DNA of 38,963 nucleotides from Actinomycetes bacterium. Lineage in GTDB: Bacteria > Actinomycetota > CALGFH01. The notes below the pieces were generated by a model. That model did no database searches. It was not told where the DNA came from and worked only from the letters and a program-made list of their open reading frames with translations. Position numbers and translations under genes: made by a program. Numbering within the stretch: position 1 is the first letter of the stretch; the number at the start of each line of letters is the position of its first letter. Below, one piece after another: positions 23,634 to 31,673 of this stretch. Location of the stretch: assembly GCA_036000965.1 (NCBI GenBank), contig DASYUT010000128.1, forward strand, positions 1 to 38,963, given 5' to 3'.

Positions 23634-23759
23634 CGACCATGCCCTGGAACCATGCCCTGGAACTCGGACGACCGTTCCCTCAACTCGGACGACTGTGCCC
23701 TGAACTCGGACGACCATGCCCTGAGCTTCATGTCCTGGAGCTTATGCCCTGGACCATAC
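23634..23759. repeat. 21-bp tandem repeats with degenerate flanks
   Basis: Three units at 23661-23681, 23682-23702 and 23703-23723 share AACTCGGACGAC and then CCCT. Shorter relatives built on CATGCCCTGGA lie on both sides (23637-23660 and 23724-23755). The array fills the gap between the DyP peroxidase and the sigma factor gene; no protein is supported there. Confidence 0.85.
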
Positions 23760-23762
23760 CCC

Positions 23763-23798
23763 TTACGATGCTCTCACGACTTACGATGCTCTTACGAC
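23763..23798 (+). promoter_or_regulatory. 18-bp direct repeat pair upstream of the ECF sigma gene
   Basis: TTACGATGCTCTCACGAC and TTACGATGCTCTTACGAC stand directly side by side, 55 bases before the sigma gene ATG. They are more AT-rich than their surroundings and differ at one base. Direct repeats in this position are typical of regulator binding sites. They could equally be another slippage array. Confidence 0.55.
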
Positions 23799-23852: not shown

Positions 23853-24428
23853 ATGGAGGAGACCGGCGATCTCGTCCGGGCCGCCGCCGCAGGAGACCAG
23901 CGGGCCTGGGACGCGCTCGTCGAGCGGTTCACCGGGATGCTGTGGGCGGTGGCGCGGGCACACCGGCTGCGCGAGGCCGACGCCGCCGACGTCATCCAGA
24001 CGACCTGGCTCAACCTCGTACAGAACCTCGGGAGGATCCGCGAGCCTGAGCACGTCGGCGCGTGGCTGGCGACCACCGCGCGCCGGGAGTGCCTGCGCAC
24101 CCTCAGCCGCGACCACCGTCACGTGCTCACCGACGACGAGACCGGCCTGCAGGTCCGCGAGCCGCTGCTGCCCACGCCCGAGGACGACGTGCTCGCGGCC
24201 GAGCGTGTGGCCCTGCTGCGGGCCGCCCTCGAGGAGCTGCCGTCCCGCTGCCAGCGGCTGCTGCGCGTGCTCACCGCCGACCCGGTGCCGACCTACGAGC
24301 AGGTGAGCGCGGCCCTCGGCATGCCGGTCGGCAGCATCGGCCCGACCCGCGCACGCTGCCTGGAGCGGTTGCGGCACAGCACACGGCTCGCCGGCATCGT
24401 GCCCACCCCGGGCGCTTCCGTGCAGTGA
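23853..24428 (+). CDS. ECF-type RNA polymerase sigma factor
   Basis: 191 residues from ATG 23853, with AAGGGAG eight bases upstream. Region 2 is clear: DQRAWDALVERFTGMLWAVARAH and ADVIQTTWLNLVQNLGRIREPEHVGAWLATTARRE, including the -10-recognising helix. Region 4 reads LPSRCQRLLRVLTADPVPTYEQVSAALGM and GSIGPTRARCLERLRH. No anti-sigma gene is adjacent, which is unusual. The next gene on the same strand is a site-2 protease, a class that in other systems frees sigma factors from membrane anti-sigmas. Any functional link here is inference. Function: redirects RNA polymerase to a small regulon. Confidence 0.9.
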   Translation: MEETGDLVRAAAAGDQRAWDALVERFTGMLWAVARAHRLREADAADVIQTTWLNLVQNLGRIREPEHVGAWLATTARRECLRTLSRDHRHVLTDDETGLQVREPLLPTPEDDVLAAERVALLRAALEELPSRCQRLLRVLTADPVPTYEQVSAALGMPVGSIGPTRARCLERLRHSTRLAGIVPTPGASVQ

Positions 24429-24518
24429 CCCGCTCGCGCCGCCAGGCCGGGTCCTGGTCCGGTGGCCCTGCTGCAGGACTTCCTTACGGCAGCCTGACGG
24501 CCGTGACGCTACCATCAT

Positions 24519-24640
24519 GGGTGAAGGGGAGTACCCCAGCGTTCACGGCGCGTCGTCATCACGGCCTCGGCCCGGTGCGCCGGCCCTCCGGGGCGGGAGA
24601 GACCTTCGGCGCTGCAGCCGGCAGCCAGTTGAGCCGAAGG
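24519..24640 (+). ncRNA. yybP-ykoY (Mn2+-sensing) riboswitch with SD-sequestering expression platform
   Basis: The aptamer has the two conserved loop strands of the yybP-ykoY class: AAGGGGAGTA (24524-24533) on the 5' side and GAGACCTTC (24599-24607) on the 3' side. P1 is formed by GAAGG (24523-24527) with CCTTC (24603-24607); a GC-rich arm with GTCATCA and CGGCC lies between. Downstream, CCTTCGGC (24603-24610) is perfectly complementary to GCCGAAGG (24633-24640), which contains the Shine-Dalgarno of the site-2 protease gene (ATG 24650, seven bases on). Forming P1 and sequestering the ribosome site are therefore mutually exclusive. Ligand binding should stabilise P1 and free the site, a translational ON switch. 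The class is known to sense Mn2+; metal response here is inferred. Confidence 0.82.
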
Positions 24641-24649
24641 GACTAGTCG

Positions 24650-25849
24650 ATGGACCGTCACACCACCTCCGCCACCACCGCGCGCCCGGGTCCAGGCCCA
24701 GGGCCGGGCTTCGGCATCGCCGGGTTCCGGGTCAGGGTCGGCTGGGGCGCCGCCGCCGTCACCGCGCTGATCGGCTGGTCGCTGGCGGCCGGCGTGCTCC
24801 CGGCTGCCTTCCCCGGGTACGCCGGCCCCGCCTACTGGGTCGCCGGCCTGGTCACCGGCGGGTTGTTCCTGGCCTCGGTGCTGGCTCACGAGCTCGGCCA
24901 CGCGCTCGTGGCCAGGCAGGCCGGGCTGAAGGTGCAGGACATCACCCTGTGGATCTTCGGCGGGGTGGCCCGCATCCACGGCGATGCGCCCAACCCCAGC
25001 ACGGCGCTGCGCATCGCCGCGGTCGGACCGCTCACCAGCCTCGTGCTCGCCTTCGGGTTCGGGCTGGCGTCAGCCGCCCTGCCCGTTGTCGGCCTGGGCG
25101 GGCTGCCCGCCGCGGTCGCGCTCTGGCTGGCCGGGATGAACGCCGTGCTGGCCGTGTTCAACCTGCTCCCGGGCGCCCCGCTCGACGGCGGGCGGATCCT
25201 GCGCGCCCTGCTGTGGCGCCGGCACGGCGATCCCGCGCGCGCCGCGGTGACCGCGGCCACCGCCGGGCGGGTCATCGGCCTCGGGCTGGTGGCGCTCGGA
25301 GTGGTCCAGCTGGCCCTCGGGAGCGCCAGCGGGATCTGGAACGCCCTGGTCGGCTGGTTCGTCTTCACCGCGGCGCGGGCCGAGGGCGGGCAGGCGGAGC
25401 TCGAGCGCGGGCTCGGGCACCTGCGGGCCAGCGACGTGATGCTCCCCGACCCGCCGCTGGGACCGGCCTGGTTCACGGTCGAGGCGTTCCTGGGCGGCCA
25501 CGCCGTGCGCCACCGCCTGCGCGCGTTCCCGCTGCAGGACTTCGACGGTCGTCCGGCCGGGCTGGTCACCCTGGCCGCGTTGCTGCGGGTGCCGCCCGAG
25601 CTGCGGCCGGCGGTCCGCGTGGGCGCCGTAGCCACGCCGGCGGCCGCGGTGGTGACCAGCGGCCCGGGCGAGCCGGTGGTGGAGCTGCTCCGGCGCCTGG
25701 CCCAGCGCAGGCAGGGCGCCGCGCTGGTGGTGGGCGAAGACGGCCGCCTGGTCGGCGTCGTGTCCGCCGACGACCTGGCCCGGGCCGGGTCGACGGCCCG
25801 GGCCGGCGCATCGTTGCCAGACCCCGGGCCGGAACCGGTCGGGAGATGA
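24650..25849 (+). CDS. Site-2 protease family (M50) intramembrane metalloprotease with CBS-like tail
   Basis: 399 residues. The zinc site H80-E81-x2-H84 lies in a membrane helix (ASVLAHELGHALVARQAG), and the second motif NLLPGAPLDGGRIL (Asp179) completes it. At least five hydrophobic segments are visible between residues 30 and 240. The C-terminal ~130 residues resemble paired CBS modules (SDVMLPDPP; VVGEDGRLVGVVSADDLARAG), which usually bind adenosyl nucleotides. This is the Rip3-like layout of actinobacteria. It cleaves membrane-embedded substrates; the substrate is unknown. Its ribosome site GAAGGGA is in the switching helix of the upstream riboswitch, so expression should follow that ligand. 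The PGPGW gene follows after four bases. Confidence 0.9.
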   Translation: MDRHTTSATTARPGPGPGPGFGIAGFRVRVGWGAAAVTALIGWSLAAGVLPAAFPGYAGPAYWVAGLVTGGLFLASVLAHELGHALVARQAGLKVQDITLWIFGGVARIHGDAPNPSTALRIAAVGPLTSLVLAFGFGLASAALPVVGLGGLPAAVALWLAGMNAVLAVFNLLPGAPLDGGRILRALLWRRHGDPARAAVTAATAGRVIGLGLVALGVVQLALGSASGIWNALVGWFVFTAARAEGGQAELERGLGHLRASDVMLPDPPLGPAWFTVEAFLGGHAVRHRLRAFPLQDFDGRPAGLVTLAALLRVPPELRPAVRVGAVATPAAAVVTSGPGEPVVELLRRLAQRRQGAALVVGEDGRLVGVVSADDLARAGSTARAGASLPDPGPEPVGR

Positions 25850-25853
25850 GCCG

Positions 25854-26102
25854 TTGACCACGAGACCGGGTTCGACCATCGGCCGGGCCCTGGTCAAGGG
25901 CGCGAGGCTGGTGAGCGTCACCGTCGTCGGCTTCTCGCTGGTCATCGTGGGGATCGTGCTCCTGTTCCTGCCCGGCCCGGGCCTGCTCGTCATCATCGCA
26001 GGGCTCGCGCTGCTGGCCACCGAGTTCGCCTGGGCCCGCCGCCTGCTCGTGCTCGCCCGCGGGCAGGCCCGCCGGATGAGCGACCGGGTGCGCCGCCGGT
26101 AG
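25854..26102 (+). CDS. PGPGW-family small membrane protein (TIGR02611-like)
   Basis: 82 residues starting at TTG 25854, with GGGAG eight bases before it and the previous stop only four bases upstream. A hydrophobic core runs VSVTVVGFSLVIVGIVLLFL, then the signature LPGPGLLVIIAGLALLATEF and a basic tail WARRLLVLARGQARR. The family motif is PGPG(W); here the fifth position is Leu. Two membrane helices with short basic ends are expected. Function of the family is unknown. Tight spacing implies co-translation with the site-2 protease and shared riboswitch control. Confidence 0.8.
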   Translation: MTTRPGSTIGRALVKGARLVSVTVVGFSLVIVGIVLLFLPGPGLLVIIAGLALLATEFAWARRLLVLARGQARRMSDRVRRR

Positions 26103-26127
26103 CGGCGCGGCGACCCGGTGACCGCTG

Positions 26128-26330
26128 TGCCAGCGGATTCCCCCTGGTTTTGCCAGAGCATTCCCCCTGGCTCTGTCAGAGCATCCGCCTGGCTCTGCCA
26201 AACCTTCCCCCGTGGGTCTGGCAGAGCTTCCCCCGTGGGTCTGCCAGGCGTGCGCATCGGCTACCTGCTCGCCGACCCGTCCGTGGTCTGCCAGAGCTTC
26301 TCCGTGGGTCTGCCAGAGGATTTCCCCTGG
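26128..26330. repeat. 22-23 bp degenerate minisatellite, about seven units
   Basis: Units of the form TGCCAGAGC-TTCCCCC-GTGGGTC recur, for example from 26153, 26176, 26199 and 26222, and again near 26289 and 26311, with a diverged stretch at 26245-26285. They fill most of the 389 bases between the PGPGW and class V PLP genes. Reading frames through it give only repetitive peptides (WQTHGE-like on the minus strand), so I do not call a gene. Confidence 0.85.
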
Positions 26331-31267: not shown

Positions 31268-31574
31268 CCCTCATGCCGCTCCGCTCCGTCGGTCACCAGG
31301 CCGCGCCCGCCGCTGGCACCGGCCGGGACACGATACCGTACGCCCGACTACCGTAGCCCGACCCGCCGCGGGCGGGGACGCAGGGACGTGGGTGGGCCTG
31401 GCCTGCCGCGGCGCGGGACGCGGGGACGCCCCACCCGCCGCAGGCGGGACGTAGGCAGGGCACGCCCGAAACATACGAACCGTCGTGCTGGTCGCCGACC
31501 AGGGTGACGGTCAGGTCAATGTGGGCGGTCGGATAGGCAGGGCCCGTCACCGGGCCCCGCCCTGCTCAGAGTGA
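31268..31574. other. Intergenic region with GC-rich inverted repeats
   Basis: No gene is supported. It holds CCCGCC/GGCGGG hairpins (31364-31378, 31435-31449), the near repeat TACCGTA twice (31336, 31350), a CTGGTCG-C-CGACCAG palindrome (31489-31503) and a GGGCCCG/CGGGCCC hairpin (31540-31557). Some of these probably serve as promoter or terminator parts for the CoA-transferase operon and the intron remnant. On the minus strand TATCGT (31330-31335) is a possible -10 for the operon, without a clear -35. Confidence 0.5.
31540..31557. terminator. Hairpin next to the group II intron 3' end
   Basis: GGGCCCG and CGGGCCC pair around TCAC, about 20-30 bases beyond the likely intron 3' end on the minus strand. 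It could terminate transcription arriving from the intron. Confidence 0.45.
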
Positions 31575-31673
31575 AGTAGGCCGCCGACGTGGTGCCCGTG
31601 GTTGGGGTCCTGTTCCGTCGGCCCCTTCCCGAACCGTGCTGGCGAGCTTTCCCCGCACACGGCTCTCCGGTGC
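31575..31673 (-). ncRNA. Group II intron 3' end (domains V and VI)
   Basis: On the minus strand, directly after the maturase stop, GAGCCGTGTGCGG (from 31665) then GAAA and CACGGTTC (ending 31631) form the highly conserved domain V hairpin, with its GAAA tetraloop. Domain VI follows: GCCGACG (31616-31622) pairs with CGTCGGC (31583-31589). The 3' end should lie just after, near the CTAC at 31576-31579, but is not fixed exactly. The 5' intron half (domains I-IV) is missing, so it cannot splice alone. Confidence 0.8.

Follow-up and report, generated by a model that had tools for sequence, protein, structure and literature searches.

We found that the gene for an M50 site-2 protease in an actinobacterial contig of 38,963 nucleotides (DASYUT010000128.1; this whole stretch is called the window below) stands behind an RNA element of the yybP-ykoY type. 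In our best explanation a translational riboswitch of this class, of a GC-rich actinobacterial form and activated by Mn2+, would govern the operon of the protease and a small PGPGW membrane protein, and we hold the riboswitch part of this explanation to be very probable. The aptamer architecture, the class membership, the alternative pairing, the operon layout and the recurrence of protease targets were computed here. A role of the protease in Mn2+ defence is proposed more tentatively, with a chance that we place a little below even.

Results

The features of the leader and of the operon are listed in Table 1. Both conserved aptamer strands reported in the preliminary description, which was made from the letters of the window, were recovered as AAGGGGAGTA and GAGACCTTC, and both strands of L1, GGGGAGUA and GAGACC, were present at 24526-24533 and 24599-24604. 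The strongest element is the L3 bulge, which was absent from that description. In solved structures of the class an invariant adenosine contacts Mn2+ (PMC6754395), and by its position in the L3 motif A24558 is taken to be this Mn2+-sensing adenosine. The pattern GGGGAGTA-N(12-40)-CGTCA-N(25-55)-GAGACC matched once in the window and in none of 100 shuffles.

Table 1. Features of the aptamer, its expression platform and the downstream genes
Feature	Position	Strand	Basis or remark
-10-like box TACCAT	24510..24515	+	at -16 relative to GGGGAG, position conserved in class
Whole Mn2+-type (yybP-ykoY) aptamer, putative	24518..24614	+	covariance model R1, window left out of the seed
P1.1 switch helix, 5' strand UGAAGG	24522..24527	+	pairs with 24603-24608
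AAGGGGAGTA	24524-24533	+	read directly in the window
L1 5' strand GGGGAGUA, core	24526..24533	+	alignment A1; pattern match
P1.2 5' strand CCC	24535..24537	+	pairs with GGG 24595-24597
P3 hairpin	24547..24581	+	9-bp lower stem, L3 bulge, upper stem GGC/GCC
L3 bulge UCAUCAC, 7 nt, asymmetric	24556-24562	+	between the 9-bp and 3-bp stems of P3
P4 hairpin GCCC-UCCG-GGGC	24583..24594	+	sequence; explicit pairing GCCC/GGGC
GAGACCTTC	24599-24607	+	read directly in the window
GAGA + CCUUCGGC, L1 3' strand and switching strand	24599..24610	+	pairs with P1.1 or the ribosome site
CCTTCGGC	24603-24610	+	read directly in the window
GCCGAAGG	24633-24640	+	8/8 Watson-Crick complement of CCTTCGGC
Ribosome-binding site GCCGAAGGGA, predicted to be sequestered by the switching strand	24633..24642	+	8/8 Watson-Crick complement; folds
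SD-like AAGGGA	24637-24642	+	seven bases 5' of ATG at 24650
M50 site-2 protease with C-terminal CBS domain, 399 aa	24650..25849	+	Pfam
PGPGW small membrane protein	25854..26102	+	PF09656 E=9.3e-18; TTG start

With the structure imposed on the window, P1.1 was formed by UGAAGG/CCUUCG with U-G as the outermost pair, the lower P3 contained two wobbles among its nine pairs, and the outer P1.2 pair was mismatched (C24534/A24598). P4 was seen by sequence only, and its length differs between relatives. No independent P2 hairpin was found in the window, where the sole candidate (5 pairs) would take nucleotides of P3; since 53 of 82 relatives manage three pairs at most in this stretch, a reduced P2 appears typical of the GC-rich form. 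A TANNNT box was present 15-24 nt 5' of GGGGAG in 84/101 relatives and in 7/101 in a shifted control interval. In the window the -10-like TACCAT occupies this place, from which a transcription start at the aptamer or just 5' of it would be expected.

The helices covary across 93 relatives, which were aligned by fitting them to a related structure. The columns of P1.1, P1.2 and P3 were paired in 94.6% of cases versus 77.5% after shuffling, and 320 double changes were observed versus 89 in the shuffled alignment, all slid versions being far worse; double changes occurred at 17 of the 20 pairs. The P1.1 helix was paired in 95% of cases, both partners having changed at 5 of 6 pairs; the lower and upper P3 were 95% and 97% paired, respectively. 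P1.2 was not in the fitted model and yet covaries strongly, its first pair being UA in 40, GC in 21 and CG in 16 relatives. A GG/CC hairpin that RNAalifold placed inside GGGGAGUACCCC was replaced by P1.2, since P1.2 covaries.

The preliminary description had assigned the element to the yybP-ykoY class and held that the lack of a covariance-model hit would speak against it. Such a hit was indeed lacking with the public model RF00080, which gave no match in the window at the gathering score, none at E≤5 in the local stretch and none at E≤10 in the whole genome of origin. Reading this miss as a refutation was dropped, since leaders of the same form before TerC and P-type ATPase genes were missed too. 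It is not taken as an exclusion because RF00080 misses most GC-rich actinobacterial members, which also means that the yybP-ykoY regulon is under-annotated.

A tailored covariance model, R1, was built from 35 aligned and then folded relatives, with the window and the related leader of genome G279 left out. Its match in the window spans 24518-24614 and scores 72.8 bits (E=8.2e-14; 15.4 bits for the runner-up place). This score follows in part from the choice of the seed by a pattern which the window also satisfies; the pattern took no account of P1.1, the 9-bp P3, P4 or the promoter position. Over the whole genome of origin the window element was the better of two matches (E=1.3e-11). RF00080 found members in 10/247 genomes of the phylum at E≤0.01, one of them above its cut-off, and R1 in 86/397, the searches differing in sample size and cut-off. 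The three-part pattern with the L3 letters CGTCA matched in 56/397 genomes of the phylum, and a control with the pattern read backwards gave about seven matches altogether in the phylum sample. Seven pattern matches (L059, L061, L075, L089-L092) were set aside by eye as chance, as their aptamers did not resemble the others and exporter-type genes were missing behind them.

R1 also picks up sequences that pass RF00080 or fall just short of it, by which the GC-rich set can be joined to the RF00080 set: L042, which is above the RF00080 cut-off, obtained 44.5 bits from R1, R1 matched most sub-threshold RF00080 hits, and L071, L066 and L112, to which RF00080 gives a score, show the same three-part pattern. 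By this bridging, and not by the Rfam score, we claim the window element as a real member of the yybP-ykoY Mn2+ class, judged from its sequence. The earlier assignment is thus upheld by the held-out R1 match and by the covariation of P1.1, P1.2 and P3.

The expression platform had been described as a choice of the 3' strand between P1 and an anti-SD pairing, and this was borne out. Two partners are open to CCUUCGGC, namely P1.1 and GCCGAAGG at the ribosome site, and this alternative pairing covaries across the class. In 106 members the longest Watson-Crick run between the switching strand and its own downstream region had a mean of 5.47, versus 4.56 (sd 0.11) with the downstream regions of other members, so that own exceeded swapped by about 8 sd. 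Full 8/8 matches occur in the window (CCTTCGGC/GCCGAAGG) and in the G279 leader (CCTCCACG/CGTGGAGG), with different letters. The predicted unpaired probability of the AAGG bases was 0.01-0.03 in the free fold and 0.81/0.99/0.52/0.26 with the aptamer imposed, by which the first two SD bases are largely freed and the next two partly. Computed without tertiary contacts, the ON secondary structure lies about 15 kcal/mol higher in predicted energy than the OFF fold, so that the switching decision would probably be kinetic or be made through tertiary contacts that the model ignores. Docking of L1 and L3 lets Mn2+ stabilise P1.1 (PMC6754395).

The first recognisable gene after 114 collected leaders was TerC in 59, a P-type ATPase in 17, GDT1/UPF0016 in 16, a Na/Ca exchanger in 10, M48/HtpX in 3 and M50 in 2, and 7 leaders had no family assignment for this gene, one of these being GDT1-like by motif. 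Recognised divalent-cation transporters (TerC, GDT1, P-type ATPase, Na/Ca exchanger) thus follow 102 of the 114. As the transporter families known for the regulon are among them, Mn2+ is by analogy the most likely ligand. The genome of the window holds a second aptamer (G000:C161:14414-14534, L054/L148) before a gene of the Na/Ca-exchanger family. Elsewhere an aptamer precedes a DksA/TraR-type zinc-finger protein (L087, G304:C31) and, in L101 and L102 (G257, G343), a protein of ~290 aa, which has no Pfam match in L102 and is a possible further non-transporter target.

Pfam confirmed all three protein identities proposed before, namely M50 (PF02163, E=6e-23), the CBS-like tail (PF00571, E=2e-10) and PGPGW. 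Both protease motifs, HELGH and NLLPGAPLDGG, are preserved; among solved proteins the nearest relative is MJ0392 (PDB 3b4r; E=1.9e-21 over residues 72-262). The PGPGW gene starts 4 nt past the M50 stop, and the two genes probably share an operon. An ECF-type sigma factor gene (Sigma70_r2) lies directly 5' of the leader on the same strand (23853-24428); it was considered as a partner in regulated intramembrane proteolysis, adjacency being the sole support. The gap after the PGPGW gene contains a tandem repeat of ~23 bp (GCTCTGCCAGAGCATTCCCCCTG, 5.4 copies, 26124-26247), further short repeats lie at 23636-23798, and a group II intron domain matches on the minus strand at 31571-31667 (RF00029, 57 bits).

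A protease had been called an unusual target for the class, and it proved rare yet recurrent. In G279 an aptamer (66.5 bits) precedes an M50-CBS protease, followed within ~60 bases by a P-type ATPase of the kind found behind other aptamers. A second aptamer of this genome (L232 tail, G279:C5:258974-259087) lies at the contig end, ~5.9 kb 3' of the M50/ATPase locus. HtpX-type M48 membrane proteases stand behind the aptamer in L145 (G001:C952) and L146 (G002:C271), both of the window's own family, and in L203 (G256:C74), where a 12-bp terminator hairpin with a U tract overlaps P1.

When M50 leaders were compared, as had been proposed for orthologues, the G279 leader bore the aptamer and the leaders of the nearest M50 orthologues, in G001 and G002 (53-54% identity), bore none. 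R1 scanning of the top M50 loci of other genomes (~30 close loci in the phylum sample) found it in G279 only, and within the window's family and the order of G279 no close M50 orthologue but that of G279 had it. The aptamer-M50 link therefore appears sporadic. Since the M50 tree groups the window with G001/G002 and not specifically with G279, the window and G279 cases look independent, or the arrangement heavily lost. A search of genome contigs with the M50 protein alone gave one distant match. Just 5' of the start, the G001/G002 M50 orthologues have TACCCC-N-GGGGTA palindromes instead of the aptamer, which we take to resemble CsoR-type operators. At the M50 promoter these read TACCCCC-TA/TG-GGGGTA, near 1419-1433 in L002 and near 1423-1437 in L003.

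Discussion

In the mechanism that we propose, transcription would begin at the aptamer. Without Mn2+, CCUUCGGC would pair with GCCGAAGG and hide the ribosome site (OFF), and Mn2+ bound between L1 and L3 would lock P1.1, hold CCUUCGGC and leave the ribosome site free (ON). Both the ligand and the ON direction are drawn by analogy with the class. At high Mn2+ the M50 protease would most likely cut a divalent-cation importer or mismetalated membrane proteins; we infer its substrate and role with less confidence than the ligand and the ON direction.

The window element shares with yybP-ykoY (RF00080) the P1.1-L1-P1.2 stem, P3 with the asymmetric L3 bulge containing CGUCA, P4 and GAGACC. It also shares the 3' P1 strand that doubles in the expression platform and, as a class, the position before Mn2+ exporters. 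It differs from RF00080 in being GC-rich, in a rudimentary or absent P2, in falling below RF00080 detection and in its site-2 protease target. With MJ0392 and related M50-CBS proteases the protein has HExxH and NxxPxxxLDGG in common. To our knowledge, no riboswitch link has been described for this protease group. A search of the open literature, with key subscription papers outside its reach, gave no report of a protease target for the class. The HtpX leaders carry the same aptamer before a membrane metalloprotease, but the protease family is unrelated, and the L203 platform is transcriptional whereas that of the window would be translational. In B. subtilis the Mn2+-sensing ykoY/meeY leader places the same aptamer class before a membrane protein of Mn2+ physiology, which is however a TerC transporter/metallochaperone and not a protease (PMC10550928).

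The arrangement might also arise from a real aptamer with an incidental protease, through a recent move of the aptamer or insertion of the M50 gene behind a former exporter riboswitch, and would then have no physiological purpose. Such an origin fits the presence of the aptamer at the window and G279 only among the ~30 close M50 loci, the palindromes in its place in G001/G002, and the G279 M50 gene standing between the aptamer and a P-type ATPase. The switching strand, however, is tuned over all eight bases to the M50 gene's own ribosome site, likewise in G279, and a second membrane-protease family is targeted in three genomes; we consider an incidental protease unlikely. It is much less likely still that the same fold senses another ligand (e.g. 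Cd2+, Ca2+, Mg2+) or a protein. The Rfam model does not accept the window sequence, but the L1 and L3 core letters, including the A of CGUCA, are all invariant in a seed set chosen by a pattern containing them (GGGGAGUA throughout alignment A1, for which it served as a selection criterion), solved structures show Mn2+ in contact with an invariant adenosine (PMC6754395), and 102/114 leaders of the same form precede Mn2+/divalent-cation exporter families.

A chance resemblance combined with an ordinary SD-sequestering hairpin, responding to no ligand, would be compatible with the unremarkable bulk folding energy of the element (MFE z=-0.72) and with the ease with which helices form in GC-rich DNA. 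Against it stand the 72.8 bits from a model blind to the window, far above the next best place, and the 9-bp P3, P1.1, P4 and promoter position outside the letters by which the element was found. We give chance next to no probability and judge it already refuted by the held-out R1 score and the covariation.

For the riboswitch-controlled protease that we prefer, B. subtilis provides precedents. The rhomboid YqgP cleaves the importer MgtE at high Mn2+, and the YqgP-FtsH-MgtE system is thus alike in that an intramembrane protease lowers a divalent-cation importer; YqgP is however no family relative of M50 and senses by its own N-terminal domain rather than by a riboswitch (PMC7231995). HtpX and FtsH copurify with TerC proteins, in whose absence FtsH is essential (PMC10550928). 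Because of these precedents, we favour an M50 protease that would lower cation import or clear mismetalated proteins. Together with the G279 M50-ATPase arrangement they also make the earlier suggestions of an Mn2+-homeostasis pair and of metal-dependent proteolysis plausible as hypotheses.

Few signals or substrates are known for site-2 proteases with CBS tails, and a metal riboswitch before such a gene points to Mn2+ excess as the condition to look at and to MgtE/NRAMP-type importers and mismetalated membrane proteins as candidate substrates. HtpX recurs as a target, a hint that the Mn2+ regulon of some actinobacteria includes membrane proteolysis; in Bacillus, correspondingly, TerC is tied to HtpX and FtsH both physically and genetically. 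It is conceivable, with nearly as much for it as against it in our estimate, that Actinobacteria switch on membrane proteolysis (M50, M48/HtpX) by Mn2+ riboswitches as a second arm beside efflux. If true, an importer or mismetalated membrane proteins would be removed in response to Mn2+ excess.
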